This document shows positions 6,132-35,810 of a stretch of 36,577 nt of DNA, piece by piece; position 1 is the stretch's first letter, and each line of letters begins with the position of its first letter. The position numbers and the translations under genes are program-made. The notes beneath the pieces were generated by a model. The model was not told the origin of the DNA, ran no database searches, and worked only from the letters and a program-made list of their open reading frames with translations. The DNA is from a virus. The stretch is taken from positions 1 to 36,577 of IMG/VR virus record IMGVR_UViG_3300017991_000235; one strand, 5' to 3'.

Positions 6132-6148
6132 AACTCCAACTTGGAGTT
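6132..6148. promoter_or_regulatory. Late operator palindrome, copy 1
   Basis: AACTCCAA-C-TTGGAGTT is a perfect inverted repeat with an 8-bp arm and a one-base centre at 6140. The 1-nt centre cannot form an RNA hairpin loop, so a dimeric DNA-binding protein is the natural reader. The core CTCCAACTTGGAG recurs at 36155-36167, in both cases 16 bases from palindrome centre to the first base of a -35 box. Its place near -51 fits an activator site; a repressor is possible. Confidence 0.7.
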
Positions 6149-6155
6149 TACGCGC

Positions 6156-6184
6156 TTGCAAAGTGGTGTCCCGATAAGTACAAT
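6156..6184 (+). promoter_or_regulatory. Late promoter before major capsid gene
   Basis: TTGCAA (6156-6161), a 17-base spacer and TACAAT (6179-6184) form a good sigma70-type promoter. The expected start is near 6191, giving a leader of about 175 nt before the capsid ATG. It shares geometry and the upstream palindrome with the promoter at 36177-36205. It would separately drive the highly expressed capsid and tail genes. Seen in sequence; activity is inferred. Confidence 0.7.
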
Positions 6185-6205
6185 CCTTGCAGAATCGGGA
6201 CACCA
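6164..6205. repeat. 12-bp inverted repeat across the capsid promoter
   Basis: TGGTGTCCCGAT (6164-6175) and ATCGGGACACCA (6194-6205) are perfect reverse complements 18 bases apart. The left arm is in the -35/-10 spacer and the right arm begins just past the expected start point, so the -10 box lies between them. Because the left arm is probably not transcribed, this looks like a DNA-level operator rather than an RNA hairpin. Confidence 0.65.
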
Positions 6206-6367
6206 TCCCCGGCCAAATGCCGAGTCATTAGGCTCCGGGATATCGTTATAAGACTTTGGACTGCCGAGTACAGCACAAGTCGCCCCAGCGGACCCTGCCG
6301 AGATCAGGAACACGCGAGAGGAGCAACCTGTGCTTTTTTTTGTTGGCATATTTTGGAGAAAAAAGAA
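6206..6367 (+). other. Capsid mRNA leader with TGCCGAG repeats
   Basis: Non-coding stretch between the promoter and the capsid gene. It contains three copies of TGCCGAG (6218-6224, 6262-6268, 6296-6302) and a T8 run at 6334-6341 shortly before the ribosome site. I found no open reading frame with a credible start, and no clear terminator hairpin directly before the T run. The repeats could be protein-binding sites in DNA or RNA, or chance. Confidence 0.35.
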
Positions 6368-7756
6368 ATGAGTTTGAAACAACTGCGTGAATTGAGAGCA
6401 AAACTTCTGGCAGACACGGAGGCCATCATAGCCCTCGCGGAAACAGAGAAAAGAGACCTGACCGAAGAAGAAGCCACACTAATCGACGAGATGAAAGCCC
6501 AGGACGAACAGGCCAAAGCCGACATCGCAGACATAATCGCAGCAGATAAGAAGAAAGCAGAACGCAAAGAAGACATCGCCGCACGAAAGAAAGAGCTGGC
6601 CGCCAGCGCCGGTCGTAAAACAACCGCCCTCGCACCGGAGGACGTTCTGGACGATGTCCAGGATAAAGCGACCATAACCACACACGAGAGATGGCTGGAC
6701 GACCCGAAGCTCGGATTCAAAGACGACCGCGAATATCTTAATTCAGTCGTCGCAGCCGGAATGGGAACGCGCCAGGTAGATGAGAAGCTCATCAAAATCA
6801 ACGCGGCCCTCGGCCAGAACACGCTCAGCGGAGAAGATGGCGGATTCGTTATCCCGCCCGAATTCAGCAACCGGGTATTTGAGAGAGTCAGGTCAGACCG
6901 CCTCGGCATCCTTGCCAAGACGGACCATCTCACGCTCACCGGCAATACTATGAAGGTGCCCGGATTTGTTGACCACGACAAATCCAGCGCGACCTACAGA
7001 CACGCCGGAATCGTCGTTTACGATGTAGGCGAAGGAAACGAGATAACCGCCAGCAACCTCAAATTTCGCCAGATCAAGCTGGAGCTCAACAAGAAGGCCG
7101 CCCTCGCATACGCAACAGAGGAGATGCTTTCTGACACCTCGCTCAACATGGGGCAGCGCATATTCGATAAGATGGGCGAGGCAATCGGAGACGAGCTCAC
7201 GGAAGATGTGATGTTTGGAGACGGCGTCGGAAGAGCCCAAGGCGCCTTAACCAGCGACGCAGTAGTTAGCCAGGCGAAGGAAAGCGGACAGGTCGCAGCT
7301 ACAATCGTCAGCCAGAACATCATCAAAATGAAGGCTCGAATCTGGTCCGGCAGCGAAGGCCGAGTCAACTGGTATTACAACCAGGGAGCATTCCCACAGC
7401 TGGCCAGTATGTACATAGCAGTCGGAACCGGCGGAGTTCCGGTCTGGCTACCGGCCAACGGAATAGCCGGCGCGGCATTTGACACCCTCTATGGCGAACC
7501 AGCCTGGAAGACGGATCACTGCGCAGCGGTCGGAACCGTAGGCGACATAGCCGCGATCGATTGGAGCCAATACTACACGGCATCCAAGGGAACACCGCAG
7601 ACCGCGATGAGCATGCACGTCCGATTTATTTACGACGAGCTCGCATTCCGGACAACCTTCAGGTTTGACGGAACGCCGGCATGGGATCGGGCTTTGACAC
7701 CTCGCAAGGGTGCCGACGATGTAAGCCCATTTGTCACATTGGCGAAGCGCGTATAA
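6368..7756 (+). CDS. Major capsid protein, HK97 fold
   Basis: Main shell protein. Residues 1-90 are a charged, helical scaffold (delta) domain (LKQLRELRAKL, AQDEQAKADIADII) that the upstream S49 protease probably removes. HK97-fold landmarks follow: SGEDGGFVIPPEFSNRVFE, then MKVPGFVDHDKSS, KKAALAYATEEMLSDTS (spine helix region) and a C-terminal FRTTFRFDGTPAWDRALTP. The ATG at 6368, 9 bases after GGAG (6355-6358), is preferred to the TTG at 6353 that overlaps this ribosome site. This gives 462 aa. It is first in the transcript from the promoter at 6156. Confidence 0.95.
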   Translation: MSLKQLRELRAKLLADTEAIIALAETEKRDLTEEEATLIDEMKAQDEQAKADIADIIAADKKKAERKEDIAARKKELAASAGRKTTALAPEDVLDDVQDKATITTHERWLDDPKLGFKDDREYLNSVVAAGMGTRQVDEKLIKINAALGQNTLSGEDGGFVIPPEFSNRVFERVRSDRLGILAKTDHLTLTGNTMKVPGFVDHDKSSATYRHAGIVVYDVGEGNEITASNLKFRQIKLELNKKAALAYATEEMLSDTSLNMGQRIFDKMGEAIGDELTEDVMFGDGVGRAQGALTSDAVVSQAKESGQVAATIVSQNIIKMKARIWSGSEGRVNWYYNQGAFPQLASMYIAVGTGGVPVWLPANGIAGAAFDTLYGEPAWKTDHCAAVGTVGDIAAIDWSQYYTASKGTPQTAMSMHVRFIYDELAFRTTFRFDGTPAWDRALTPRKGADDVSPFVTLAKRV

Positions 7757-25066: not shown

Positions 25067-25068
25067 AC

Positions 25069-25138
25069 AAAGGGGCCAGCTTCCTGGAGGGTTCGTAAAA
25101 GGACGCTCATGTTAGGATTCCCGACCTGGCCCCTTTTT
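25069..25138 (+). terminator. Terminator after the structural block
   Basis: AAAGGGGCCAG (25069-25079) pairs perfectly with CTGGCCCCTTT (25126-25136), followed by more T residues. The loop is long, 46 nt. It lies directly after the stop of the last late gene and probably ends late transcription. Confidence 0.65.
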
Positions 25139-25143
25139 ATCAA

Positions 25144-25172
25144 AATGGCCATAAGTCGCATTTATGGCCATT
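25144..25172. repeat. 11-bp inverted repeat, possible operator
   Basis: AATGGCCATAA (25144-25154) and TTATGGCCATT (25162-25172) are perfect reverse complements with a 7-base centre GTCGCAT. No T run follows. The arms are themselves built around the palindrome ATGGCCAT. It could be a regulator site or a transcript-end stabiliser. Confidence 0.45.
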
Positions 25173-25259
25173 CCAACAATAGAAGGCCGATGTGCTTTTT
25201 ATTTAACAAGCGGGCGAAGAGGAGATAGAATTTGAAAGATGTGATTTCTTCTTTGCTGT

Positions 25260-25297
25260 AGGCCTCTCGGGTTCGTGATTCGGGAGGCCTTTTTTTA
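25260..25297 (+). terminator. Intrinsic terminator with T8 run
   Basis: AGGCCTCTCG (25260-25269) pairs with CGGGAGGCCT (25281-25290) with one G-T pair, an 11-nt loop and a following T run to 25297. Good Rho-independent terminator. It overlaps the stop codon of a nine-codon reading frame at 25232-25261. Confidence 0.8.
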
Positions 25298-25318
25298 TCC
25301 AGAAGGGAGGTGAGAAAA

Positions 25319-25474
25319 ATGCGTCTTCAAATAGCAGCCCTGATGATCGCGGCACTTTTGGCATTTTCGGGATGCATTCGCATCGCAGCAGGAAAAGTCA
25401 ATTACAAAGACACCACGATAGAGAATGCAGAAATCGAGGTAAAGGAAGACAAGGCGAAGGATGATGGCCAGTGA
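25319..25474 (+). CDS. Small lipoprotein
   Basis: 51 aa, not flagged by length-limited gene calling. A short signal peptide MRLQIAALMIAALLAFSGC ends in a lipobox-like FSGC with Cys19 as the likely lipidated residue; Phe at -3 is unusual. The mature part is short and charged (VNYKDTTIENAEIEVKEDKA). GGGAGGTGAG gives a strong ribosome site. Lying between two terminators after the putative holin, it could be an Rz1-like outer-membrane spanin subunit or a superinfection-exclusion lipoprotein; no Rz partner is evident. Confidence 0.65.
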   Translation: MRLQIAALMIAALLAFSGCIRIAAGKVNYKDTTIENAEIEVKEDKAKDDGQ

Positions 25475-25521
25475 GGCCGATAATTCAACTGAAGCCATAA
25501 CGTTAAGAACAACAGGCAAGC

Positions 25522-25556
25522 AAGGTCGGCTCCCGAAAGGTAGCCGGCCTTTTTTA
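25522..25556 (+). terminator. Intrinsic terminator after lipoprotein gene
   Basis: AAGGTCGGCT (25522-25531) pairs with AGCCGGCCTT (25542-25551) with one G-T pair and a 10-nt loop, followed by a T run to 25556. It insulates the early promoter region from upstream transcription. Confidence 0.85.
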
Positions 25557-25687
25557 TTGGCTCAAAGCGGCAAATCCGGACTTAAAACACATAGGGAATA
25601 AAAAACTTCAGAAAATGAAAGTATTTGTAAGCACCATGAGTGTGGGGACATGTGTCCGCAAAAATGCCAAATAGGCCATAATAAAAG
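25557..25687. promoter_or_regulatory. Control region upstream of early promoter
   Basis: AT-rich non-coding stretch. It holds CACATAGGGAATAAAA at 25588-25603, repeated with one change at 25691-25706 inside the promoter spacer, and the inverted repeat GGACA-TG-TGTCC at 25646-25657. Both are candidate regulator sites. I see no credible gene in it. Confidence 0.45.
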
Positions 25688-25716
25688 TTGCACATAGGGA
25701 AGAAAAGTCTTATAAT
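25688..25716 (+). promoter_or_regulatory. Early promoter, near-consensus sigma70 type
   Basis: TTGCAC (25688-25693), a spacer of exactly 17 bases and TATAAT (25711-25716). The expected start is at about 25723. It is the strongest promoter match in the window and drives the run of small early genes. The spacer contains the second copy of the CACATAGGGAA repeat, so a protein bound there would block the promoter. Confidence 0.85.
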
Positions 25717-25791
25717 ATAAGCATGGAAACAAGGAAAAACACACACGAAACCAGGCCAACAGCAAAGAAGGCCACATTAAGGAGCAAAGGC

Positions 25792-25995
25792 ATGAAGGCA
25801 GCAGAAGCATACACGGCGACGATGAAGGAAACCCTGGGAGCGATCGAGGCCCTCAAGAACAACCTCCTCGAGACATACCCAGCAGCAACTCACGAGGCCA
25901 TGAAGACGTTGAACTGGGACACCGTAGGCAGCCTCAAGCACGTTCTCGCAGAGATCAAAGACCTGAACGCCTTTGTCACAGGCGAGGAGAGATAA
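25792..25995 (+). CDS. Small early helical protein
   Basis: 67 aa, helical and acidic (YTATMKETLGAIEALKNNLL, SLKHVLAEIKDLNAF). No family recognised. The ATG at 25792 has AAGGAG at 25779-25784 with 7-base spacing. An in-frame ATG at 25723 coincides with the predicted transcription start and would need leaderless translation, so the shorter form is preferred. As the first gene after the early promoter it is a candidate host-takeover or regulatory protein, by position only. Confidence 0.6.
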   Translation: MKAAEAYTATMKETLGAIEALKNNLLETYPAATHEAMKTLNWDTVGSLKHVLAEIKDLNAFVTGEER

Positions 25996-26010
25996 CCCGA
26001 AACCAGGGCC

Positions 26011-26043
26011 GGGACCGCAAACCGGCCCAACAGCAAAGGAGAA
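26011..26043 (+). repeat. Early leader repeat, copy 1
   Basis: A 33-base sequence starting GGGACCGCAAACCGG and ending AACAGCAAAGGAGAA, which includes the ribosome site of the next gene. It is 32/33 identical to 26281-26313. In this copy only, the preceding GGGCCGG (26006-26012) can pair with CCGGCCC (26022-26028) in a 7-bp hairpin just upstream of the ribosome site. Confidence 0.75.
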
Positions 26044-26048
26044 ACAAG

Positions 26049-26270
26049 ATGGACAACAGAACACGCGAAGAAAAACTGGACAGGCTAGCCGAGATAAGAT
26101 GGCAGATGAGCGACCTGATCGAAGAGGCCGAAGATTTGATCGGACAGATGGACACCGGCGAGCTTCACATAGCCAAAAGAACATGGCTGGCACACCTCAA
26201 AAACAGCATCGAAGAGACCACGCAAAACGAGCGAACCATGGAGATGGCCATAAGAGACCTGGCGAGCTAA
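26049..26270 (+). CDS. Small early charged helical protein
   Basis: 73 aa, nearly all helix, very charged (EEKLDRLAEIRWQMSDLIEE; HLKNSIEETTQNERTMEMAI). Probably a coiled coil or helical bundle. No motif. AAAGGAG from the repeated leader lies 7 bases before the ATG. Coding is supported by the ribosome site and by the matching leader on the next gene. Function unknown. Confidence 0.6.
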   Translation: MDNRTREEKLDRLAEIRWQMSDLIEEAEDLIGQMDTGELHIAKRTWLAHLKNSIEETTQNERTMEMAIRDLAS

Positions 26271-26280
26271 ACCCTAACCA

Positions 26281-26313
26281 GGGACCGCAAACCGGCCCCA
26301 CAGCAAAGGAGAA
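26281..26313 (+). repeat. Early leader repeat, copy 2
   Basis: Second copy of the 33-base leader unit of 26011-26043, one base different (C for A at 26300 region). It also supplies AAAGGAG to the following gene. The upstream arm needed for the copy-1 hairpin is missing here. Confidence 0.75.
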
Positions 26314-26320
26314 GAAAGAC

Positions 26321-26572
26321 ATGACAACGGCAACGAAGAATACACAGCCCCCCAAAAAATACACGGTCCAGGAATACGACCTGGTCACCCCCAAGCGCCT
26401 CAAGATAATCGGATATTACAGCACGATGGCGGAGGCAAAGAAGGCCGCCAAGGAATCAGCGAAAGGCTGGTGTGAGGGCGAGACGCCCGAGTTTTTCCCG
26501 ATTATACCAGGCATCACAGGCTGCGCCGGCATGGCAGACTTCGGAGCCGTAATCATAAACAACCAGCGATAA
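26321..26572 (+). CDS. Small early protein, 83 aa
   Basis: 83 aa. A short polar N-terminus (TTATKNTQPPKK) leads to a compact alpha/beta part: YTVQEYDLVTPKRLKIIGYY, TMAEAKKAAKESAKGW, a possible loop, then ITGCAGMADFGAVIINNQR. It resembles small phage domains with a strand-helix-strand core; no family is assigned. The ATG follows the second copy of the repeated leader with its AAAGGAG. Confidence 0.6.
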   Translation: MTTATKNTQPPKKYTVQEYDLVTPKRLKIIGYYSTMAEAKKAAKESAKGWCEGETPEFFPIIPGITGCAGMADFGAVIINNQR

Positions 26573-26596
26573 CCCTAAGCGAGATGGGAGGCGAAA

Positions 26597-26803
26597 ATGA
26601 GACTTCAAGAATACGCGATTAAATGGCGAAGGAACCCAGGCGTCAACTTTGCGCTGGCTTGCTACAAGGATAAGGATATCTTCGAATTAGAAGAGATGGT
26701 AGCCGGAAAGCCCGACCTGGATGATCTGACCACATGGGGGATAAGCGCCCAAGAATGGACAGAGGCCATCGACGCCGCGATTCAAGAAAGGATGTACGAA
26801 TGA
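26597..26803 (+). CDS. Small early protein, 68 aa
   Basis: 68 aa, mostly helical, with YAIKWRRNPGVNFALACYKD and a C-terminal WGISAQEWTEAIDAAIQERM. No motif. GGGAGG lies 6 bases before the ATG. The stop overlaps the start of the PLD-like gene in ATGA, so the two are coupled. Confidence 0.55.
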   Translation: MRLQEYAIKWRRNPGVNFALACYKDKDIFELEEMVAGKPDLDDLTTWGISAQEWTEAIDAAIQERMYE

Positions 26804-27429
26804 AGCAAAAAACGCTCTTTGATTTAGACGACGTCGCGGACGAAGTGGACAAGGTGGTAGAGAAGACCAAGAGCAAAGCCACCCGGACCGAGGAAAAAAT
26901 CCAGATGAAGCTCAGCAAGGCAGCCGACCGCCTCGAGGACGTGATCGGCGCGGTCGAGATGGGAAAAACAACCCATTACGTTTCCATAAGCGAATGGAGC
27001 ATGCATGATGTCTTGTTCCACATTTTGAGACAGACCGGGCCGGCGGAGGTTTGCATAGCGACCTGGTCGGTTTCCGAGATAGCGGTCCGGCAAATTTTCA
27101 AGCAGATGGAGGAGGGACAGATAACCAGGCTGTACGCGCTCCTTGATTGGAGGGTCAAGGTAAGGCGCCCGGAGGTCCACGACCTGCTCAAGTTTAACAT
27201 TTCCGACATTCACGTGACGACATGCCACGCGAAGACCACGGTAATCAGAAACAAAAAATGGGCAATCTCGATAGTCGGGAGCGCCAACTTCACGAATAAC
27301 CCGAGGATAGAGGCCGGCGTGATTTCATGCGACAGAGCCGCCGCAGATTTCCACCGGAGATGGATTCTTGACGCGATAAAGGGAGCTAACCCATTCGAGG
27401 TCAAGACCGGGAGGCGAAATTGGAAATAA
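26800..27429 (+). CDS. PLD-like domain protein with degenerate HKD motif
   Basis: 209 aa. Residues 1-60 are charged and helical, perhaps DNA- or partner-binding. Residues about 65-190 look like one phospholipase D-like half: H143 and K145 in CHAKTTVI, then VGSANFTNNPRIE (G160, S161, N163). The Asp expected five residues after the Lys is Arg150, so catalysis is doubtful. PLD-fold nucleases act as dimers of such halves. The role could be nuclease, nuclease inhibitor or DNA binding. The start at 26800 overlaps the preceding stop; an upstream in-frame start lies inside that gene. Confidence 0.72.
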   Translation: MKQKTLFDLDDVADEVDKVVEKTKSKATRTEEKIQMKLSKAADRLEDVIGAVEMGKTTHYVSISEWSMHDVLFHILRQTGPAEVCIATWSVSEIAVRQIFKQMEEGQITRLYALLDWRVKVRRPEVHDLLKFNISDIHVTTCHAKTTVIRNKKWAISIVGSANFTNNPRIEAGVISCDRAAADFHRRWILDAIKGANPFEVKTGRRNWK

Positions 27430-27734
27430 AGAAGGCACAGCTAAGCGAAATCGAGCAGCTTGGCGAGCTGCAGTTTTCCATACGGGAGATAGCGATAATC
27501 ATGCAGCTGGACGAAGCAGCGCTAGAGAAGAAGGTCAGAGAGAACAAGATAGTCCGCAACGCATACGAGCGGGGCCGGCTCAAGGCCTCCGCAGCAGTCC
27601 GCAAGGCCCTACTCCAGCTAGCGAAGCAGGGTAGCAGTCCAGCCCAGAAGCAGATGCTCGAATTGATAGACAAGGCCGGCAAGAAGAAGGAATCAGCGGC
27701 CAAGCAGATGGAAAATCTATTGACCAAGAAATGA
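27420..27734 (+). CDS. Helix-turn-helix-like early protein
   Basis: 104 aa from TTG with GGGAGG upstream, overlapping the PLD-like gene by 10 bases. FSIREIAIIMQLDEAALEKK reads like a helix-turn-helix that senses a target site. It is followed by AYERGRLKASAAVRKALLQL and GSSPAQKQMLELIDK, which recalls the tail part of some small terminase or phage DNA-binding proteins. It is too far from the packaging genes to be the main small terminase. A DNA-binding role is likely, target unknown. Confidence 0.65.
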   Translation: MEIKKAQLSEIEQLGELQFSIREIAIIMQLDEAALEKKVRENKIVRNAYERGRLKASAAVRKALLQLAKQGSSPAQKQMLELIDKAGKKKESAAKQMENLLTKK

Positions 27735-27750
27735 GAGGAGGTGAACAGAT

Positions 27751-27951
27751 TTGAAGGTGAAAACGACGAAGCTCAGATGCCACCGATGCGGGCACGAATG
27801 GAGCCCGAGAGGCGAGGACGTCTATAAATGCCCAGCATGCAGATCAATTTATTGGTATCTGACAGATGCGCAATACTACGACCAAGTAACCCGGGGCCGG
27901 AAGCCCAGAGAGGAGACAAATGAGACCGCTAAAGATAAAACAGGCAACTAG
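27751..27951 (+). CDS. Zinc-ribbon protein, 66 aa
   Basis: 66 aa. Two CxxC knuckles (CHRCGHEW and CPACRSIYW) 18 residues apart form a typical zinc ribbon, followed by a charged tail (RGRKPREETNETAKDKTG). TTG start with GAGGAGGTGA, an excellent ribosome site. It could bind nucleic acid or a host transcription component. It overlaps the next gene by 32 bases. Confidence 0.7.
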   Translation: MKVKTTKLRCHRCGHEWSPRGEDVYKCPACRSIYWYLTDAQYYDQVTRGRKPREETNETAKDKTGN

Positions 27952-28135
27952 GAAGGTGGCCAAGGCGATCGCACACCTTAGCGATCAGATAGAGAAAGGA
28001 AAGGAGAATGAGACGCAGCCACAGATGACCAGGGTCTGGGAAGACGCCGAGCATTTTGCCAGTAAGGCACACTTGGCGCTTTTGAATTGCCTGGACAAAT
28101 TAGAAATCGTACGGAGAGCCGACCAGGATTTATAG
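27920..28135 (+). CDS. Small early helical protein, 71 aa
   Basis: 71 aa, basic N-terminus (RPLKIKQATRKVAKAIAHL) and amphipathic helices (SKAHLALLNCLDKLEIV). GAGGAG lies 4 bases before the ATG, inside the zinc-ribbon gene. No family recognised; composition suggests a helical hairpin. Confidence 0.55.
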   Translation: MRPLKIKQATRKVAKAIAHLSDQIEKGKENETQPQMTRVWEDAEHFASKAHLALLNCLDKLEIVRRADQDL

Positions 28136-28145
28136 GAGAAATCAC

Positions 28146-28493
28146 ATGGCAGAGAACAGGGCAAAACACAAAAGGGAATCAGCGCTCGAAGAATTCGCGC
28201 AAATGTGGACAGGGCAAAAGCGAGAATTCATAACGGTCACCTATAACGCCGCGGTCCTCAACGCAATTCTAACGACTCTAATGGCTGATTTGGCAAAAAT
28301 GATCGACAAGGCAAAGCAGAGCATAGGGCTAGATATTGAGGTTTTGCAGTTCGTCAAAGGACAGCATGCGCTCATTCGCGAATTTGCAAAACCCCTGGCA
28401 GGAACCGCCGCGATAGATTCGCTCGAGGATGGCTTGAAAAACAACCTGGTCACCATAGGCATTCTAACGCAGGAGGAGCTCGATGCTAAATGA
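28146..28493 (+). CDS. Early helical protein, 115 aa
   Basis: 115 aa, helical throughout: SALEEFAQMWTGQKREFITV, YNAAVLNAILTTLMADLAKM and QFVKGQHALIREFAKPLAG. It ends with EDGLKNNLVTIGILTQEELD. AGGAG precedes the ATG. It is followed by a 33-residue membrane peptide that begins within its last codons. No enzymatic motif; unknown function. Confidence 0.6.
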   Translation: MAENRAKHKRESALEEFAQMWTGQKREFITVTYNAAVLNAILTTLMADLAKMIDKAKQSIGLDIEVLQFVKGQHALIREFAKPLAGTAAIDSLEDGLKNNLVTIGILTQEELDAK

Positions 28494-28584
28494 TTGGATT
28501 TCGAAGAACGGGATAGCCAACATGGCCATCCTGGCAATAACGGTTTTACTTTTATGGGAGATCATAAAATGGTTGACGCGATAA
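28483..28584 (+). CDS. 33-residue single-span membrane peptide
   Basis: Short frame MLNDWISKNG, then a hydrophobic span (IANMAILAITVLLLWEII) and a basic end KWLTR. AGGAGG at 28471-28476 is 6 bases before the ATG. It overlaps the end of the previous gene and the start of the next, in a third frame. The charge pattern (N-out, positive C-terminus) is that of small phage membrane peptides that affect host membranes or superinfection. Too short for routine calling; supported by ribosome site and composition. Confidence 0.55.
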   Translation: MLNDWISKNGIANMAILAITVLLLWEIIKWLTR

Positions 28585-29813
28585 GCAGAGAAGACGGAAC
28601 GACAGCAGTAGACAAGGCGGCACAGATGCCGGTAGCCACAACGCCGGCGGAGGCACCGCAAGCAGTCTCCGAGATAAAGCACAAAGCGGAGATAGCGCGA
28701 GCGCAGATGGCGGCAGATATGAGCGTAGTAATCGCCAGGGAACAAGCGATAGACCTCCTCTTCGAGAAGAAAATCATGAAAAACGGGATCCACTACGGAG
28801 AGATACCAGGGACAAAGGGGAGAAAATGCCTCCTCCAGGCAGGAGCCCAGAAGCTGATGACACTTTTCCAGATGAGGCCCCAGCGCGAGGTGGAGGAAAT
28901 CAAGCTGCCGGGCGACCACCGGGAATACAAGGTCAGAACCAAGCTCATATCGATGGTTTCCGGTCAGCAGGTCGGAGAGGGGCATGGCAGCGCGAGCACG
29001 ATGGAGGCAAAATACAGATACCGGATAGAATGGCTCAACGACAAGCCAGTTCCTAAGGAATGGTGGACAACAAAAGATCCGATGGTCCTCGGCGGCCCGG
29101 AATACGAGGTCAGGTCAATCGGCAGCGGAAAATTCAAGACGTACAAGATTGTCCGGAAGCATGAGCACCCAGACCCCTTCGACTACCACAACACAGCTCT
29201 CAAGATGGCATGCAAGCGCAGCGAGGTACACGCGACGATAGACGCGACAGCGACGTCCGACCGATACACGAGCGACAAGGAAGATTGGACGCCCAGCATG
29301 CGCCCGGACGACAACAGCGAGGAAACGCACGAGCAGCTAGAGGCCGAAAGTCTACAAGAATCCCAGTTTAAGGCCCGTCACGTACAGCCGATGCAGGCAG
29401 CGCCCGAGGCCAGGCAGGGATTGGACTGGAACCGAGGAAAGACGCCATTCCAGGGATCTGGCGCTAAAACGCACGAGAATGCCCCAGGATCGCCGGTTCC
29501 GGATCCGCGTAGGGATACACCAGAGGCCCAGAGCTCGCAAAACGTACCCACAGAAGCCAAAGCGGATAACCCCAAAACAGGCGAGGGTCCGGACATTGAC
29601 GATACTCCGAACCGGAGGATAACAAAGCAGGAATACGACGAGATGTGGGACCACGCCCGGAATCTTGGCGCAACTCCGGAAGAAATAAACAATTACATCG
29701 GCATGATGGGCTTTAACAAGCCAAGCGAGATAACCGAGGAGGGATGCCGGATGGTTGTCGAATGGGCAGAGGCACAGAAACGGATACGCGACCAGGAATC
29801 CGGCAAGGGATAA
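28569..29813 (+). CDS. Putative single-strand annealing (recombination) protein
   Basis: 414 aa. Residues 20-230 hold a block that I associate with phage annealing/Rad52-like or related recombination proteins: GIHYGEIPGTKGRKCLLQAG, AQKLMTLFQMRP, VSGQQVGEGHGSASTMEAKY and NTALKMACKRSEVHATIDAT. The region 240-370 is polar, low-complexity and probably disordered (PPro/Ser/Glu-rich). Residues 375-414 form a small helical domain (TPEEINNYIGMMGF). The ATG at 28569 follows GGGAG by 8 bases. The alternative ATG at 28554 overlaps that site. Function moderately supported; it could instead be an uncharacterised DNA-binding protein. Confidence 0.6.
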   Translation: MVDAISREDGTTAVDKAAQMPVATTPAEAPQAVSEIKHKAEIARAQMAADMSVVIAREQAIDLLFEKKIMKNGIHYGEIPGTKGRKCLLQAGAQKLMTLFQMRPQREVEEIKLPGDHREYKVRTKLISMVSGQQVGEGHGSASTMEAKYRYRIEWLNDKPVPKEWWTTKDPMVLGGPEYEVRSIGSGKFKTYKIVRKHEHPDPFDYHNTALKMACKRSEVHATIDATATSDRYTSDKEDWTPSMRPDDNSEETHEQLEAESLQESQFKARHVQPMQAAPEARQGLDWNRGKTPFQGSGAKTHENAPGSPVPDPRRDTPEAQSSQNVPTEAKADNPKTGEGPDIDDTPNRRITKQEYDEMWDHARNLGATPEEINNYIGMMGFNKPSEITEEGCRMVVEWAEAQKRIRDQESGKG

Positions 29814-29859
29814 ATTCAGACCGAAACCAACAAACCAACCAAGATGGGAGGCGAAAACA

Positions 29860-30186
29860 ATGGCGAATTACAGCGCAAAGAAGAAGGCAACGCGGAAAAT
29901 AGCCCGAATCATCCAGGGCATATCGGTCAACATAGAGCAGGAGGCGACCGCAAAGAAGACGAGATACGGTATGATTTCCTACAGTATGGACCAGATAAGA
30001 GATCAGCTTGAGCTTCTAGATGAGATTCTAAAGCTAAAAGATGGAGACAAAAATGGCAAAATGCAAAAGATGCGGCAGACAGATAATCTGGCTAAAGACC
30101 AAAGCGGGCAAGGCGATGCCGGTGGACCATCCGATACCGGAGCAGAAACAGAAGAGATGGGAGGCCAGAAGGATGCCGATATTTGA
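29860..30186 (+). CDS. Small early protein overlapping a zinc-finger gene
   Basis: 108 aa if read to its stop. Residues 1-65 look like a real helical basic protein (ANYSAKKKATRKIARIIQGI; MDQIRDQLELLDEILKLKDG). The last 43 residues overlap the next gene in another frame and have a biased, shadow-like composition (GQGDAGGPSDTGAETEEMGG). GGGAGGCGAAAACA precedes the ATG. The long overlap suggests a lost stop codon or an incidental C-terminal extension. Confidence 0.55.
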   Translation: MANYSAKKKATRKIARIIQGISVNIEQEATAKKTRYGMISYSMDQIRDQLELLDEILKLKDGDKNGKMQKMRQTDNLAKDQSGQGDAGGPSDTGAETEEMGGQKDADI

Positions 30187-30313
30187 TCCGAAGATCCACA
30201 CGAGCCACTACTCAACGTGTCCGGACGCAAACAAATTCCGGATGAGGAAAAGGCCCATCCCCAAAAAGGAACCAGACCCCCAGCTGGATCTGTTTGGAGA
30301 AAAAAAGATTTGA
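30053..30313 (+). CDS. Zinc-binding early protein, 86 aa
   Basis: 86 aa. CKRCGRQIIWLKTKAGKAMP at the start, followed by a VDH motif and later HTSHYSTCPDANKFR, gives a CxxC plus H/C set typical of small phage zinc-finger proteins. The basic tail (RMRKRPIPKKEPDPQLDLF) ends in a QLDLF motif resembling the short beta-clamp-binding peptides of replication proteins. GGAG at 30043-30046, 6 bases before the ATG, supports this start over the ATG at 30041. It overlaps the previous gene by 134 bases. Confidence 0.68.
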   Translation: MAKCKRCGRQIIWLKTKAGKAMPVDHPIPEQKQKRWEARRMPIFDPKIHTSHYSTCPDANKFRMRKRPIPKKEPDPQLDLFGEKKI

Positions 30314-30343
30314 CACATGGGGAACAAAAGATTAAGGTGCTAC

Positions 30344-30523
30344 ATGAAGGCCAAAACAACATCAAACCACACTGGGATAATGCACCGTATTTTGAGGGGA
30401 GCCCCGGTCGCCCACCTAGCTACACAGCTTGGCCTTCACGACCGGGAATCTCCCCTTCACAGGACGATTCTCTACCCCTGCGCGCGCGCGTATTATGTAT
30501 ATAATTATATAGCAGCCGCGTGA
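30344..30523 (+). CDS. Possible small helix-turn-helix protein
   Basis: 59 aa. GIMHRILRGAPVAHLATQLG followed by LHDRESPLHRTIL reads like a helix-turn-helix of a small regulator. AAGGTG lies 5 bases before the ATG. TTGACA-N17-TAAGGT (30312-30340) is a possible weak promoter in front. Against it, the frame contains a 15-bp inverted repeat and its end runs through a CG repeat and AT-rich block, so the composition may reflect DNA structure rather than coding. Confidence 0.35.
   Translation: MKAKTTSNHTGIMHRILRGAPVAHLATQLGLHDRESPLHRTILYPCARAYYVYNYIAAA
30395..30456. repeat. Long imperfect inverted repeat near replication gene
   Basis: AGGGGAG-c-CCCGGTCG (30395-30410) pairs with CGACCGGG-aat-CTCCCCT (30439-30456): 15 pairs with a small internal bulge and a 28-nt loop. 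No T run follows. It is 23 bases before the CG-alternating tract at 30479-30492. Possible replication or regulatory structure. Confidence 0.5.
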
Positions 30524-30572
30524 TAGGTTTTTCTTAAGAAAGAGAGAGATAAGAGAAAGAGAAAAAAATAAC
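30479..30572. other. Alternating CG tract, AT-rich block and purine tract
   Basis: TGCGCGCGCGCGTA (30479-30492) is 14 bases of strict purine/pyrimidine alternation, followed by the AT-rich TATTATGTATATAATTATAT and, at 30535-30567, a run of almost pure A/G on this strand. This is the sharpest composition change in the window. It lies just before a loader-like gene; easily melted DNA of this sort is common at replication origins. Inference only. Confidence 0.35.
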
Positions 30573-30609
30573 TGGTGGCAAGCCGAGCCACAGAATAGGA
30601 CGACAAACG

Positions 30610-31347
30610 ATGGACGAAAAAATCGCAGAGAAGAGGCAAGAGTTTATAGAGATATATGAGGAGACCTTCACGAAGTTTCCCTGCACGATCAAGCAACCCA
30701 CCAGGAGAGCAATCTGGTACGAGTTTATTGATCCGCTGGACAGGGGGATCCGGGACAAGGTTTTTATAGCGGTCCGGAAGCTCAACGAGGACGACAGATA
30801 CAAGCCACGGCTTAAGGTATTTTACAAGGCAAAAGAGGACATTCTCCGAGAATTGGAACAATCTAGAAGAGAGCAAGATTTTTCCCACACGTGCGAACTA
30901 TGCCACGATGGGATCCTTTCATTCCTGGCAGCTCGGACAAAGCAGGAGAACACCACATACTACACGTATTTTATAGGCAAGACGGACAAGGGCAAGCTAT
31001 ACTGGTGGTCCATCCCATGCACATGCCACAGGGGCAAGAAGAAAGAGCTCAAATGGCAGAGATTCAGCAGAAGCCTCCAGGTAGCCGCGGAGCAATGGCT
31101 CAAGTTTTCGGTACCCAGCGAGGTAGCCCGGTTTTCAGCGGAGACCGGCGGAGGCATCATCGAATATTTTACACACCTTGAGAGGGAGGCGCACAGGAAA
31201 GCCATCGAGGCGGATAACGGAATCCGGATAGAGCAGACGGAGGCCCGGCGAATCTGGGACGACGAACAGCAATGGAAAAAGGCCAGAGCTGCCAGAGCAG
31301 ATGGAGGACGATACAAGGCGGTCCAGTTCAAGCGCGAATTTGTGTAA
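30610..31347 (+). CDS. Putative replication protein (helicase-loader-like N-terminus, zinc finger)
   Basis: 245 aa. Residues 1-80 (EFIEIYEETFTKFPCTIKQP, then AIWYEFIDPLDRGIRDKVFI) resemble the small helical domain of phage helicase loaders such as the G39P N-terminus. Residues 94-140 contain C..C and CTCH, a likely zinc site. The C-terminal 70 residues are basic and helical (RIEQTEARRIWDDEQQWKKA). No ATPase motif. The ribosome site is weak (AGG near 30597). A role in bringing host helicase to the phage origin is inferred. Confidence 0.5.
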   Translation: MDEKIAEKRQEFIEIYEETFTKFPCTIKQPTRRAIWYEFIDPLDRGIRDKVFIAVRKLNEDDRYKPRLKVFYKAKEDILRELEQSRREQDFSHTCELCHDGILSFLAARTKQENTTYYTYFIGKTDKGKLYWWSIPCTCHRGKKKELKWQRFSRSLQVAAEQWLKFSVPSEVARFSAETGGGIIEYFTHLEREAHRKAIEADNGIRIEQTEARRIWDDEQQWKKARAARADGGRYKAVQFKREFV

Positions 31348-31361
31348 GGAGGGAGCGAAGA

Positions 31362-31598
31362 ATGGAGCCGGAAAACATAACAACAATCCTCGATGAACCC
31401 TGCCCATTATGCAGAGGGAAAATGTACGCCTATTGGCATACGCCATGTTCAGACCAGCCGGAGCTCGGCAGATGGTATATAGATCACAACGGGGACACCA
31501 ATTGTCCGGGCCTACAAACGGTAACCGGAGATAGCGAGGACGAGATAAAACAAAACTGGAAGGACATCGTCAGACGTGCGCATTACGTAATGCAGTAA
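31362..31598 (+). CDS. Lar-like zinc-finger protein
   Basis: 78 aa. CPLCRGKMYAYWHTPCSDQP, a later W-Y-I-D-H-N-G-D-T-N-C segment and SEDEIKQNWKDIVRRA match the layout of small phage zinc-finger proteins of the Lar (restriction alleviation) type. In those, a C-terminal helix with W-N ends the fold. Whether it blocks restriction is not known. GGAGGGAG lies about 9 bases before the ATG. An upstream in-frame start lies inside the previous gene. Confidence 0.62.
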   Translation: MEPENITTILDEPCPLCRGKMYAYWHTPCSDQPELGRWYIDHNGDTNCPGLQTVTGDSEDEIKQNWKDIVRRAHYVMQ

Positions 31599-31645
31599 GG
31601 GTAAAAGAGAACCGATTAACAAACCAGCGAAGGGAGGTGATACGA

Positions 31646-31957
31646 ATGGCATTAGGTGAATACAGGATATGCGATAAACACGAGGCACAGGGTAAGCGGC
31701 ATTTTGCAGAATTCACATGCATCATCTGCGGGAAGGATTTCTGTAGCGATTTAGAGAGCAGCACAGTGCATGGCATATGCGATGGATGCGAGGAACACAT
31801 CCAAGATAGAGATCTAGATGTTTTTGAGGAAATCCACGCGAAGCATTTAGCCGCAGCGCATAAGGAAATCCACGAATGGATCCGGACCAACCTCGAGACG
31901 CACCAGGATAAGCAGAAACCGAAACCAGCCAAAAAGAAGGGAGGCAAGCGTGGCTAA
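31646..31957 (+). CDS. Zinc-finger early protein, 103 aa
   Basis: 103 aa. The N-terminal half is Cys/His-rich (CDKHEAQGKRHFAEFTCIIC, then FCSDLESST, GICDGCEEHI), suggesting one or two zinc sites in a treble-clef or B-box-like arrangement. The C-terminal half is helical and ends in lysines (KPAKKKGGKR). GGGAGGTGA is an excellent ribosome site for the ATG at 31646; a GTG/ATT-like earlier start is inside it. It overlaps the nuclease gene by 8 bases. Function unknown. Confidence 0.62.
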   Translation: MALGEYRICDKHEAQGKRHFAEFTCIICGKDFCSDLESSTVHGICDGCEEHIQDRDLDVFEEIHAKHLAAAHKEIHEWIRTNLETHQDKQKPKPAKKKGGKRG

Positions 31958-32357
31958 GACCACATCGACACAGAGGACCATGAAAGAGCTCAGAGCGCGA
32001 GGATGCAAATGCCAGGTGGTGGAAAAGTGGAATTCTTTTGCCAAGAAGAAAGACGGTACCGGACCGCCCGGCATAAGGCAAGACCTCTTCGGGATTGTTG
32101 ACATTTTAGTGCTTGAGCCCGGTCGCGGTTTTCTCGGGGTTCAATGCTGCGCGGGGTCCGGCTTCAAGAGACATTGGGATAAGCTCACGGTCGAGAGAGC
32201 ACAAGACAGTCTGGACTGGTTAACCACGCCGGGCGGATTTCTTCAAATCTGGGCGTGGAGAAAGGTCAAGGCGCAGCGTGGAGGCAAGGCAATGATATGG
32301 CAGCCACGCATACAGGACGTTACCGTAGAAGACATAACCGGAAAGGAGAAATCATGA
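31950..32357 (+). CDS. VRR-NUC/PD-(D/E)xK-like nuclease
   Basis: 135 aa. The core DLFGIVDILVLEPGRGFLGV followed by QCCAGSGFKRHWDKL fits a PD-(D/E)xK nuclease: Asp near residue 46, Asp50, then a strand with Q-C in place of the usual E-x-K, and a Lys/His helix. WAWRKVKAQRGGKA after it is a block that I have seen in phage relatives annotated as nuclease or Holliday junction resolvase-like. It may resolve phage DNA or act in recombination. Its start overlaps the previous gene; it couples to the next by ATGA. Confidence 0.68.
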   Translation: MAKTTSTQRTMKELRARGCKCQVVEKWNSFAKKKDGTGPPGIRQDLFGIVDILVLEPGRGFLGVQCCAGSGFKRHWDKLTVERAQDSLDWLTTPGGFLQIWAWRKVKAQRGGKAMIWQPRIQDVTVEDITGKEKS

Positions 32358-32545
32358 CGGAGAGGGAAAAGCTTATAATGGCTTTCGGAGAGGCGTGCTT
32401 TGCGGAATCAACATTCTCACTTAGTAAACCTCGCGACACGGGATTCTGGAAGGCAGAAACCTTCGTTAAATTCAAGGTTCTTCAGGGTAAATCTTGGGAG
32501 GCTTTTCTTGCAATCCGAGAATACGACGGAAAGGAGAAAACATGA
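32354..32545 (+). CDS. Small early protein, 63 aa
   Basis: 63 aa. A helical start (TEREKLIMAFGEACFAESTF) leads to an aromatic/beta part (FWKAETFVKFKVLQGKSWEA, then FLAIREYDG). AAGGAG is 5 bases before the ATG, which overlaps the preceding stop. Its own stop overlaps the next start in ATGA. No family recognised. Confidence 0.55.
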   Translation: MTEREKLIMAFGEACFAESTFSLSKPRDTGFWKAETFVKFKVLQGKSWEAFLAIREYDGKEKT

Positions 32546-32808
32546 ACAACACGCCAAACCTGCCGAACATGCCGGTGAAGGAATCACCGCTAGAGAAGGC
32601 CCTGGTGAATTATTTAAGTTTGACAGAAGTATCCGCCAGGACGGATGCCCAGATAGCAGAGGCACGCCTCGATGTGATAGCGGAGATGAAAGAAGCCAAC
32701 ATGCACACGGTCAACTTTGAGGGCCGGCGATTCGAGTACGACGTACAGCCAGAGAAGGAATGCCTCCGGATCAAGGTGGCCAAGAGGAGCAAGAAGGGCG
32801 ATGGATAA
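32542..32808 (+). CDS. Small early protein, 88 aa
   Basis: 88 aa. A helical N-terminal half (KALVNYLSLTEVSARTDAQI, ARLDVIAEMKEAN) is followed by a small beta part (HTVNFEGRRFEYDVQPEKEC) and a basic end (KVAKRSKKG). This layout is common in short phage proteins that bind DNA or a partner protein. GGAG lies before the ATG. Unknown function. Confidence 0.58.
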   Translation: MNNTPNLPNMPVKESPLEKALVNYLSLTEVSARTDAQIAEARLDVIAEMKEANMHTVNFEGRRFEYDVQPEKECLRIKVAKRSKKGDG

Positions 32809-32852
32809 AAAAATAGAACATGGGAAATGTTAGGATACGAAAGAGGAAAAAA

Positions 32853-33470
32853 ATGAAAAAGAACCGAACATCAATACGGGCGATAAAGCCGATCGATTCG
32901 GATTTCGCGCCATCAAGAGGAGAGCCCGGGAACGATTGGACGATGAACTTCTGGTACAAAACCGGACCCAGAAAGAGGGAAAGCGCAACCGATCTTACCC
33001 TAAACTTTAATCCAGGCCCAGGCTTCTTTGAGCTTAAGGCGAAAACCAAAAGATGGAGAGAAGCAATGGCGAAGGCGGAGCAGAATCTGGAAGAGTTTAG
33101 CAAGATAACAAACAGGGCGAATCGCCGCCCAGAAAGGATGGAAAACATGAGCAAGTATGAAGAAGCCACACTAATCAAAAAACGGATCGAGCACGCAAAA
33201 GAAGGGTTTAGATTCTTAGCAACTACGCCAAACGAAAACTCGCAAAGCGGAATATCAATCCAGCTTGATTGGGCAGACGCTATAGATGAGGAAGATGGGA
33301 GATACAACGCACACAGCGCAAGGGTTTATCTCTGCGGCCCAAACGAAAAGCTAGATCCAGAAATCGAGCAGCTATTGATAGAGCTCGTAGACTTATCTTC
33401 AAAGAGAGCCAAGGAGGCAGCCAGGAAGGAAGCCAGGGAAATCATCGGAAGCCTAGAGGGAGACGCATAA
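32853..33470 (+). CDS. Early protein with two charged domains, 205 aa
   Basis: 205 aa, highly charged. Residues 1-90 are basic (KKNRTSIRAIKPIDSDFAPS, FELKAKTKRWREAMAKAEQN). Residues 95-205 contain ISIQLDWADAIDEEDGRY, then RVYLCGPNEKLDPEIEQLLI and a C-terminal helix (SKRAKEAARKEAREIIGSLE). AGAGG precedes the ATG at 32853. An upstream ATG at 32820 lacks one. A second ATG at 33147 could allow an internal product. No family recognised. Confidence 0.58.
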   Translation: MKKNRTSIRAIKPIDSDFAPSRGEPGNDWTMNFWYKTGPRKRESATDLTLNFNPGPGFFELKAKTKRWREAMAKAEQNLEEFSKITNRANRRPERMENMSKYEEATLIKKRIEHAKEGFRFLATTPNENSQSGISIQLDWADAIDEEDGRYNAHSARVYLCGPNEKLDPEIEQLLIELVDLSSKRAKEAARKEAREIIGSLEGDA

Positions 33471-33473
33471 CTA

Positions 33474-33491
33474 GAACCGGGCGTCCGGTTC
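33474..33491 (+). other. Perfect tetraloop hairpin between early genes
   Basis: GAACCGG-GCGT-CCGGTTC: 7-bp stem with a 4-nt loop, immediately after the preceding stop and 20 bases before the next ribosome site. No T run. It may protect mRNA ends or separate the two translation units. Confidence 0.5.
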
Positions 33492-33522
33492 ACGAACAAA
33501 GCCCCATTTGAAAGGGAGAAGG

Positions 33523-33843
33523 ATGGCAGAGAAGAAGACGAGTATTCTGCAAGCAGCAATCTGGGAAAAAGAAGGCGCGGAGGCGGTCAAAAACCACCTC
33601 GCAAGGCGAACGCTAAAATGCCGGGTCACCTTCGAGACAACCAAGGGGGGTAGCCTAGGACACGTGGACGTCATAGAGAAGGGCGAACCCATACCAGGAA
33701 TCAGCGATTTTCTCCCAAGTTTTCTTGGCGAGGTGACCAAGAAAGCCGAAGCCACCATTAAGGCCGAAGCCCAGAAAGCGATTGATAACGTAGGCAAACC
33801 AGCTGCGTCCGGTCCGGTTGATTTCCCGGATCAAGACGAATAA
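33523..33843 (+). CDS. Early protein, 106 aa
   Basis: 106 aa. N-terminal helix (AIWEKEGAEAVKNHLARRTL), a beta part (KCRVTFETTKGGSLGHVDVI) with PGISDFLPSFLGEVT, then an Ala/Lys helix (KKAEATIKAEAQKAIDNVGK) and an acidic tail. GGGAG precedes the ATG; a TTG at 33508 lies within that site. The tRNA-like element starts five bases after its stop. Unknown function. Confidence 0.58.
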   Translation: MAEKKTSILQAAIWEKEGAEAVKNHLARRTLKCRVTFETTKGGSLGHVDVIEKGEPIPGISDFLPSFLGEVTKKAEATIKAEAQKAIDNVGKPAASGPVDFPDQDE

Positions 33844-33848
33844 GAAGC

Positions 33849-33908
33849 AGGGGTCATGGTTGGGGAGAGCTTGACGGCAAGCTGCCCGGTTCGATTCCGG
33901 GCACCCCT
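33849..33908 (+). ncRNA. 60-nt tRNA-like three-helix element
   Basis: Three helices follow one another without gaps. Outer stem: AGGGGT (33849-33854) with ACCCCT (33903-33908). Hairpin: AGCTTG-ACGG-CAAGCT (33868-33883). T-arm: GCCCGG-TTCGATT-CCGGGC (33884-33902), with the exact TTCGATT loop of bacterial tRNAs. The 13-nt single strand 33855-33867 (CATGGTTGGGGAG) resembles a D-loop but has no D-stem. It is about 13 nt too short for a tRNA and lacks a 7-nt anticodon loop. It may be a decayed tRNA, a tmRNA-like acceptor domain, an mRNA-bound mimic, or an attachment-site core. Confidence 0.6.
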
Positions 33909-33923
33909 CAAAAGGAGAACAAA

Positions 33924-34091
33924 ATGAACACAGCCACAATTATAACATTAGCCCTGGCGACCGTTTTATCAATATCGATGTGGATAATAGACATTTACCG
34001 CCAGAAACAACGCCTCGAGAGAGGAAGAAAGAGAGACATGGAAAATGAAGAAAAGAGTCACAAAGCAAATCAGGTATCAGATAGGAGATAA
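33924..34091 (+). CDS. 55-residue single-span membrane protein
   Basis: MNTATIITLALATVLSISMW is a hydrophobic N-terminal span (about residues 4-24), followed by a strongly basic and then acidic cytoplasmic part (YRQKQRLERGRKRD, MENEEKSHKANQ). AAGGAG lies 6 bases before the ATG, just after the tRNA-like element. It overlaps the next gene by 47 bases. The form (short N-terminal span and charged tail) fits a small membrane-anchored regulator or an Rz-like spanin fragment. Not recognised. Confidence 0.58.
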   Translation: MNTATIITLALATVLSISMWIIDIYRQKQRLERGRKRDMENEEKSHKANQVSDRR

Positions 34092-34269
34092 GACACAAGA
34101 GCTTTTTACTCTGGTGGCCAATCTCATAGAAAAAGGCTACGATGTGGATTTAGATAACGATTGCCAAGACGCAATACTCAGAGATGGCCCTGGATCCGGA
34201 TGCCGGCACAGGTTCTGTATCGAGATAAATAAAGAACAAGAGGACAAGGGAGAATACCCTGCGAATTAA
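34045..34269 (+). CDS. Small early protein, 74 aa
   Basis: 74 aa, mixed alpha/beta. KKRVTKQIRYQIGDKTQELF is followed by TLVANLIEKGYDVDLDNDCQ and a Cys/His pair in GSGCRHRFCIEINKE. No family assigned. The ribosome site is weak (GGAAA), and the start lies within the membrane-protein gene, so translational coupling is likely. Confidence 0.5.
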   Translation: MKKRVTKQIRYQIGDKTQELFTLVANLIEKGYDVDLDNDCQDAILRDGPGSGCRHRFCIEINKEQEDKGEYPAN

Positions 34270-34314
34270 CAAGGAGAAACAATGCAGAAATCCAAGCAAC
34301 GTGAATAGAAAAAA

Positions 34315-34533
34315 GTGGTTGGCTCACTCAAGAAATGCGACGATGGCAATTTTTACATGAAAGTAGGGCCTCGTGACGGCACAGCGTCATACAAACCGGG
34401 CGAAAATGTCAAGAAATTAGGATTGATGATATGGCACGCATTCGATGATTGTGCTCAGGATATGCTGAAGAAAGGAGATAGGATCGATTTCGAGATGACT
34501 TTCACAAGAACAGAAGAAAAGGACAAACTATGA
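34315..34533 (+). CDS. Small early protein preceded by an in-frame amber codon
   Basis: 72 aa from GTG at 34315, with VGSLKKCDDGNFYMKVGPRD and a beta-like FEMTFTRTEEKDKL. It looks like a small OB- or Sm-like beta protein, unnamed. The GTG has no ribosome site. Eleven codons upstream and in frame is an ATG (34282) with an ideal AAGGAG, but TAG at 34306-34308 interrupts it after eight codons. So the natural gene may begin at 34282 with a nonsense mutation, be read through, or use a short leader peptide with re-initiation. Confidence 0.55.
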   Translation: MVGSLKKCDDGNFYMKVGPRDGTASYKPGENVKKLGLMIWHAFDDCAQDMLKKGDRIDFEMTFTRTEEKDKL

Positions 34534-34856
34534 CAAACGCAAAATTCGAAGAGATGCTCAAAGAGATCCATGAATGGGAGATCAAGACGAACCAGAAAAA
34601 GGCCCATGACTACGCGAACGACGCAAACACCCTAAACAACTTTGAGATTCAAGCCCAGATACTCAAGGCATTGGCACTCCCGGAGGCGCCATGGGCACAA
34701 TGTATACGCATGGTGGTGGTGAAGATTATACGATATGCAAACCTGGCCAAGAAGAACGTCGAAGCGCAGAACGAAACCCTCCTCGATACGGTGGGCGATG
34801 CCAGGCAATACATGCTGCTGGCAGAGGCATGCAGGAAGGAATGCAAATCACAATGA
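34530..34856 (+). CDS. DUF1599-like nucleotide-associated protein
   Basis: 108 aa, all helical. HDYANDANTLNNFEIQAQIL, WAQCIRMVVVKIIRYANLAK and LLDTVGDARQYMLLAEACRK match the D-Y...L-x-D...G-D-x-x-x-Y-x-x-L layout of a phage family near DUF1599 (nucleotide modification-associated domain), which is structurally related to MazG-type helical enzymes. Substrate unknown. ATGA overlaps on both sides place it in a coupled group with nearby small genes. Confidence 0.68.
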   Translation: MTNAKFEEMLKEIHEWEIKTNQKKAHDYANDANTLNNFEIQAQILKALALPEAPWAQCIRMVVVKIIRYANLAKKNVEAQNETLLDTVGDARQYMLLAEACRKECKSQ

Positions 34857-35272
34857 CAACCCAAACGCCAGAATTTCCAGGAGCGAAAAACGACCTAGAG
34901 CTCATGAGGTTACACAAGGCAAAATTAGACCTCCTCGAAGAGGGATGCCGGAGAGGATGCATCAACATCCAATTCCACCTAGCACATCCACACGCGGATA
35001 GGTTATTCAAAAGATACTACGAAATAGAGGCCCAACTAAAGGAGCTACAGAATGAACAAAAAGAAGCGATTGCAAGAATTGAGCACAAAGAACAACACGC
35101 GGAAAAACAGACACAAGATAATCCAGCTAGAACTCCGGCTCAAACAAGCACACCTCAAGGAAGCGGGATACCGGAAACAGATAATCGAGATGAAAAAGAC
35201 AATCCGACGATGCAAGGCAGAGCAGCAAACAATACGCAGCGAGGTCCAGCGGACATTGACAGAGATGCGTAA
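34853..35272 (+). CDS. Early protein, N-terminal 75 residues helical, long overlap with next frame
   Basis: 139 aa to its stop. Residues 1-70 look like a true helical protein (GAKNDLELMRLHKAKLDLLE; ADRLFKRYYEIEAQLKELQN). Residues beyond about 75 overlap the next gene in another frame and are polar and low-complexity, with Gln/Thr/Pro/Asn (TPAQTSTPQGSGIPETDNRD), perhaps incidental. The ATG overlaps the previous stop. AAGGA lies 12 bases upstream. Confidence 0.5.
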   Translation: MTTQTPEFPGAKNDLELMRLHKAKLDLLEEGCRRGCINIQFHLAHPHADRLFKRYYEIEAQLKELQNEQKEAIARIEHKEQHAEKQTQDNPARTPAQTSTPQGSGIPETDNRDEKDNPTMQGRAANNTQRGPADIDRDA

Positions 35273-35291
35273 GCTTCAAGTGGAGGGCTAA
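35052..35291 (+). CDS. Basic coiled-coil protein, 79 aa
   Basis: 79 aa, almost entirely helical and basic (KKKRLQELSTKNNTRKNRHK; LRLKQAHLKEAGYRKQIIEM; EQQTIRSEVQRTLTEMRKLQ). AGGAG is 7 bases before the ATG. It overlaps the previous frame by 221 bases. The coiled-coil heptads are regular, which favours this frame as the coding one in the overlap. Role unknown; nucleic acid or protein binding is possible. Confidence 0.52.
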   Translation: MNKKKRLQELSTKNNTRKNRHKIIQLELRLKQAHLKEAGYRKQIIEMKKTIRRCKAEQQTIRSEVQRTLTEMRKLQVEG

Positions 35292-35328
35292 AATGACCGA
35301 TAATGTAGCCAACACAGGAGGCAATAAC

Positions 35329-35601
35329 ATGACAACATACGAAGACGGAGGTCTGGACCAATGGCAGATAGACCAATGGGCAGATGCGATACGGGACGAA
35401 GACATGTACCAGAGGACGAAGCATGGCAAGCAAGACAGAACAGCATTCGAGTGGCTGGCTTATTTGGGAGAAGAAGTTGGAGAGCTCAACCAGGCCATTA
35501 TAGAACACCATTACAGGGATGGGCAATGCGACCACATCCGGCAAGAGGCGATACAGGTGGCCACATTAGCGATTAAGATAGCACAGATGATGTGCGGATA
35601 G
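35329..35601 (+). CDS. MazG-like NTP pyrophosphohydrolase
   Basis: 90 aa. The block WLAYLGEEVGELNQAIIEHH, followed by IRQEAIQVATLAIKIAQMM, has the EExxE plus later E/D helix layout of MazG-type all-alpha pyrophosphatases. The expected second acidic ExxD is only partly present (QEAIQVA), so activity is uncertain. These enzymes hydrolyse NTPs or alarmones. ATG at 35329, 7 bases after AGGAGG (35316-35321), is preferred to the ATG at 35293. Confidence 0.75.
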   Translation: MTTYEDGGLDQWQIDQWADAIRDEDMYQRTKHGKQDRTAFEWLAYLGEEVGELNQAIIEHHYRDGQCDHIRQEAIQVATLAIKIAQMMCG

Positions 35602-35608
35602 GAGAGAC

Positions 35609-35797: not shown

Positions 35798-35810
35798 AGA
35801 GGAGAATGAC

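Follow-up and report, generated by a model that had tools for sequence, protein, structure and literature searches.

A palindrome shared by two predicted late promoters is a candidate operator for coordinated late expression in a phage probably infecting Planctomycetota

Why do two promoter-like sites of one phage genome, one ahead of the capsid gene and one ahead of an HNH endonuclease gene, carry the same palindrome at the same distance from the -35 box? A sequence-only reading of the IMG/VR virus record IMGVR_UViG_3300017991_000235 had suggested that a single phage regulator coordinates late expression through this site. We followed up the proposal across the whole 36,577-bp record (52% G+C), hereafter called the window; the features discussed are collected in Table 1.

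Results

Gene layout of the window

Every called gene lies on the + strand. The window encodes an HK97-type head module (ParB/MTase, TerS, TerL, portal, S49 protease and capsid) and divides into a late block, from the left end to ~25,066, and an early block, from 25,723 to 36,170, the names "early" and "late" being drawn, for this phage, from gene content. The HNH gene, reaching to 36,558, is the final gene of the record. As the record itself is linear, a "terminase transcript" starting ahead of HNH presupposes that the right end connects with the left, in a concatemer or a circle; HNH-MTase-TerS-TerL-portal-protease would then make up a single packaging unit, followed by a unit headed by the capsid gene. 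The record stops 19 nt past HNH, with a palindrome, AAACGGACCGTTT, near that end (36540-36577), and begins 52 nt ahead of the MTase ATG (1-60). It is possible that the genome has its physical (cos) end here, where the record breaks between HNH and MTase.

The late and early blocks are separated by a gap of 656 nt (25067-25722) containing a strong terminator at 25260-25290. Several strong inverted repeats, e.g., AATGGCCATAA/TTATGGCCATT at 25144-25172, and the predicted early promoter are also found there. Within the early block, AAACCGGCCCAACAGCAAAGGAG occurs in three imperfect copies spaced by 270-271 nt (25748-26311), possibly a local duplication. No tRNA genes were found in the window. The nearest relatives of the terminase are loci in metagenome-assembled genomes (MAGs) of Planctomycetota, with 46-57% identity, and the phage therefore probably infects a bacterium of this phylum.

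Two copies of one palindrome in register with two promoter-like sites

The 13-nt palindrome CTCCAACTTGGAG had been placed at 6134-6146 and 36155-36167. Both matches are exact, and the window contains no third copy. The dyad of copy 1 is longer, with arms of 8+1+8 (AACTCCAACTTGGAGTT) compared with 6+1+6 in copy 2, which lies entirely within the 3' end of the ORF at 35811-36170. The geometry proposed earlier was likewise confirmed: in both places the palindrome is followed by 9 nt, a -35 box, a 17-nt spacer and a -10 box, and its centre is 16 nt ahead of the TTG. The stretch common to the two sites is actually CTCCAACTTGGAGT, of 14 nt. In the 9-nt spacer, positions 2-4 differ between the copies and are followed by a common C and a common CGC abutting the TTG; the shared ending CGCTTG or GCGCTTG ascribed to this spacer thus holds for the CGC, but takes in the first 3 bases of the -35 box. 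With the transcription start assumed to be about 7 nt past the -10 box, the dyad centre falls at ~-51, close to known activator positions.

Table 1. Features at the two palindrome-bearing sites and in their surroundings (window coordinates)
Feature	Position	Strand	Remarks
Palindrome copy 1, AACTCCAACTTGGAGTT, core CTCCAACTTGGAG at 6134-6146	6132-6148	.	Centre at ~-51 of the predicted capsid promoter
Predicted sigma70-type capsid promoter, TTGCAA (6156-6161)-17-TACAAT (6179-6184)	6156-6184	+	Consensus match only; +1 expected at ~6190-6191
Perfect 12-bp inverted repeat, TGGTGTCCCGAT-18 nt-ATCGGGACACCA	6164-6205	.	Extends across the capsid promoter's -10 and expected +1
Predicted capsid mRNA 5' leader, ~177 nt	6191-6367	+	Ordinary folding energy
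Major capsid protein, HK97-type (Phage_capsid)	6368-7756	+	Profile match
Basic NrdR-type zinc ribbon, 62 aa, CX2C-X27-CX2C, pI 9.4	35609-35797	+	Candidate regulator
Basic orphan protein, 119 aa, pI 9.6	35811-36170	+	Last gene before the packaging promoter; candidate regulator by position
Palindrome copy 2, CTCCAACTTGGAG	36155-36167	.	Centre at ~-51 of the predicted packaging promoter
Predicted sigma70-type packaging promoter, TTGACC (36177-36182)-17-TATAAC (36200-36205)	36177-36205	+	Consensus match only
HNH endonuclease	36211-36558	+	Gene 1 of the predicted packaging transcript

The two sites match the promoter consensus at 9-10 of 12 positions, their -35 boxes being fair (4/6 and 5/6). Altogether, the + strand contains 30 promoter-like sites, without a clear excess in the window. 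Only four of these are intergenic: the two bearing the palindrome and two in the 656-nt gap, one at 25203 and one at 25689-25716, directly ahead of the early operon, whose first gene has its ATG at 25723. The palindrome is absent from both of the latter; within this set, then, it is restricted to the two late-region promoters. At the packaging promoter, the -10 box ends 5 nt before the HNH ATG (36211) and an in-frame TAA is found at 36202-36204, so the HNH mRNA would be leaderless. A similar geometry is seen at the first early gene (25711-25725), where the -10 ends 5-6 nt ahead of the ATG and the mRNA is likewise predicted to be leaderless. The predicted capsid leader RNA matched no Rfam family and its folding was not unusual.

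The capsid promoter has a second dyad, not mentioned in the sequence-only reading. It was the sole perfect 12-bp inverted repeat returned when the window was searched with arms at most 60 nt apart, and it is absent at the HNH promoter. As DNA it is plausibly a second operator; if transcribed by read-through, the RNA would form a strong hairpin of -22.8 kcal/mol, and a role in RNA processing is possible.

The shared register is not expected by chance

The repetition of a 13-mer in 36.6 kb is unremarkable alone, about ten direct pairs being expected by calculation. A duplicated perfect palindrome appeared in 12 of 300 dinucleotide shuffles of the sequence, and a duplicated palindrome with promoters at the same offset, requiring co-registered promoters scoring at least 9/12, in none (0/300). 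When all pairs of the 30 + strand sites were compared, the palindrome-bearing pair shared an in-register word of 14 nt and the next best pair one of 7.

The site in other genomes

No close relatives were found with the capsid, zinc-ribbon and 35811 peptides, and the TerL peptides were only 38-48% identical to their matches. The palindrome site was missing from about 160 TerL-relative loci, from 69 HNH-relative loci, from the capsid relatives (76 examined of 80 loci) and from 18 Planctomycetota regions. The site is evidently not widespread. Its absence does not refute it, however, as the relatives compared are distant and at most 57-60% identical in single proteins. A scan of IMG/VR for the composite site (palindrome, 9 nt, TTG, 20 nt, TA) gave nine matches, none with the flanks of the window, and we take these for chance matches. 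Across 199 Planctomycetota genomes, CTCCAACTTGGAG had 23 matches and its reversed control also 23; this lack of enrichment makes a host-wide operator unlikely and, together with the lack of genuine sites in IMG/VR, is as expected for a phage-specific regulator.

We also considered whether a zinc ribbon before HNH is a conserved feature and rejected this: the arrangement was seen in only four of the 115 loci that had HNH and sufficient sequence ahead of it, the window itself being one of them. One prophage in a Planctomycetota MAG (L020, 7272-7530), among the closest TerL relatives found, encodes a 67-aa zinc ribbon (CX2C-X24-CX4C) directly before HNH, and the ribbon is followed by a TCCA-ACGGC-TGGA dyad, an extended -10 and a poor -35. 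This dyad is 11 bp nearer the -10 than that of the window. As the two ribbons align in short patches only and the other Planctomycetota relatives examined are without the dyad, we treat the likeness as a weak lead, possibly due to chance: it is a single case, spotted post hoc, and no evidence of conservation.

Candidate regulators next to the packaging promoter

Two small basic proteins are encoded directly upstream of the packaging promoter. The 35609 protein resembles the N-terminal zinc ribbon of NrdR (PF22811, E = 6e-5, under the curated cut-off); against full-length NrdR (TIGR00244) it scored 18.7 bits, far from the cut-off of 124.65, and the resemblance is to the ribbon only. The Ogr/Delta family (PF04606) was not among its matches listed at E <= 10, and its cysteines depart from the CX2C-X22-CX4C spacing. 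The 35811 protein had no match in Pfam, PHROGs or NCBIfam at E <= 1, and its gene ends at 36170, shortly before the promoter-like site begins at 36177. In searches with family models, neither protein matched known activator families, and their structures as predicted from single sequences were poor (pLDDT ~50). The likeliest regulator is the 35811 protein, the 35609 zinc ribbon or both.

Discussion

Our proposal, to which we give a probability of about 0.5, is that a late regulator encoded by the phage uses the dyad as its operator and, probably by activation, coordinates transcription of the packaging and capsid genes. The regulator would occupy the dyad at ~-51, on the upstream face of RNA polymerase, and the bound protein would most likely help the host sigma70 polymerase to start at two late promoters, one before HNH-terminase-portal-protease and the other before the capsid gene. 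The packaging and capsid genes would then be switched on together, after the early genes. For this phage, we infer that the promoters are active, that a protein binds, that it activates and does not repress, which protein it is and that the ends are joined.

The operator reading is supported by the two exact copies of the dyad, each in the same register with its promoter, as measured by the shuffles and the shared word, and by the confinement of the dyad to the intergenic promoter-like sites heading the two late units. Also in its favour, two small basic proteins are encoded next to the site at the packaging promoter, one of them with a zinc-ribbon signature. The suggestion that one phage regulator coordinates late expression therefore holds in part: the common dyad is nonrandom, lies at an activator-like distance, marks both late-region promoters and is not over-represented in Planctomycetota. 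Counting against the proposal are the fair -35 boxes, which activator-dependent promoters often lack, the roughly 160 TerL and 76 capsid relatives without the site, the position of both candidate proteins outside known activator families and the definition of the promoters by consensus matches.

The same arrangement could serve the opposite purpose. If the host polymerase suffices for both promoters, as their good overall consensus matches would allow, the dyad might bind a phage repressor, or a dual regulator, keeping them off early in infection, and at the capsid promoter the second perfect dyad covers the -10 and +1, a classical position for a repressor. The common dyad, however, lies wholly upstream of the -35, which is unusual for simple repression, and the second dyad is not common to the HNH promoter; we consider repression unlikely, if still worth keeping in mind. 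Lower again we place the idea that the phage exploits a site for a host transcription factor. Phages often use host regulators, and one confined to the host genus is conceivable, the host phylum being inferred from terminase relatives alone, but the equal counts of the 13-mer and its reversed control in the Planctomycetota genomes speak against it.

To a similarly low degree, the two copies could be a coincidence or a recent local duplication with no regulatory function. The repeated 13-mer alone is expected in 36.6 kb, copy 2 sits in coding sequence and the site was in no relative examined; yet the palindrome with co-registered promoters never arose in the shuffles, both copies head late units, and the flanks beyond the element are unlike, making simple duplication unlikely. 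We find it highly improbable that the dyad works at the RNA level, as a hairpin ending the upstream gene, be it a weak terminator or an mRNA 3' end. Copy 1 is located shortly past the protease stop and copy 2 at the 35811 stop, and each can fold into a hairpin of 6-7 bp with ~-7 kcal/mol. Such a hairpin would need neither the same loop and bases nor a fixed distance to a -35 box; moreover, a long U-tract is missing after the copies and terminator calling picked out neither of them.

If the operator reading is true, it gives late-gene control in a Planctomycetota phage a concrete candidate, naming two small proteins and one 13-bp site; we know of no characterised phage regulator in that phylum. 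More speculatively, the 35811 orphan or the NrdR-like mini zinc ribbon could represent a new family of late activators in Planctomycetota phages, acting through a new palindrome at -51 and with the second dyad adding an extra control at the capsid promoter.

The site had been called previously undescribed. This stands for its sequence, CTCCAACTTGGAG not being found in the open-access papers searched, but not for the principle, which is established by P2 Ogr and may be compared with Ltr. NrdR itself gives little guidance: the 62-aa 35609 protein is without the ATP-cone domain, and NrdR boxes are AT-rich, unlike the palindrome of the window. The 35811 gene is placed like those of the Ltr-type late activators (RinA, LtrC-type, TP901-1 Alt and phi13 Ltr). 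The sites of that group, however, are several direct repeats at one promoter (in phi13 four, from -107 to -42), whereas in the window one palindrome occurs at two promoters and upstream of the packaging promoter it stands single (36155-36167), with no set of direct repeats; the 35811 protein also differs in having no detectable sequence match to a known family model. In GIL01, the phage LexA homologue gp6 activates the late promoter P3 by binding a short palindrome (PMC6182141). The combination of a phage-encoded protein, a short palindrome and a late promoter is alike, although the protein is only proposed in the window, but gp6 binds over the -35, in a class II position, whereas our dyad is upstream of it. 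No LexA homologue was found among the window proteins searched.

The Ogr-type systems (P2 and 186 Ogr, Delta and B) share with the window the use of a common upstream dyad by several late promoters, here two predicted promoter-like sites with the dyad at ~-51; the dyad of P2 Ogr is similarly centred, at ~-55. The likeness is in kind and not in family: the ribbon of the window is CX2C-X27-CX2C and that of Ogr CX2CX22CX4C, and the terminase and capsid genes of the window are of HK97 type and not a P2-type set. In P2, the zinc-finger activator Ogr serves four late promoters via one type of site, TGT-N12-ACA (PMC3931495), from which the site of the window differs in both its sequence and the spacing of its dyad. 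P2 and its relatives already provide the precedent of one regulator acting through one site on several late promoters; the sequence found here is new.
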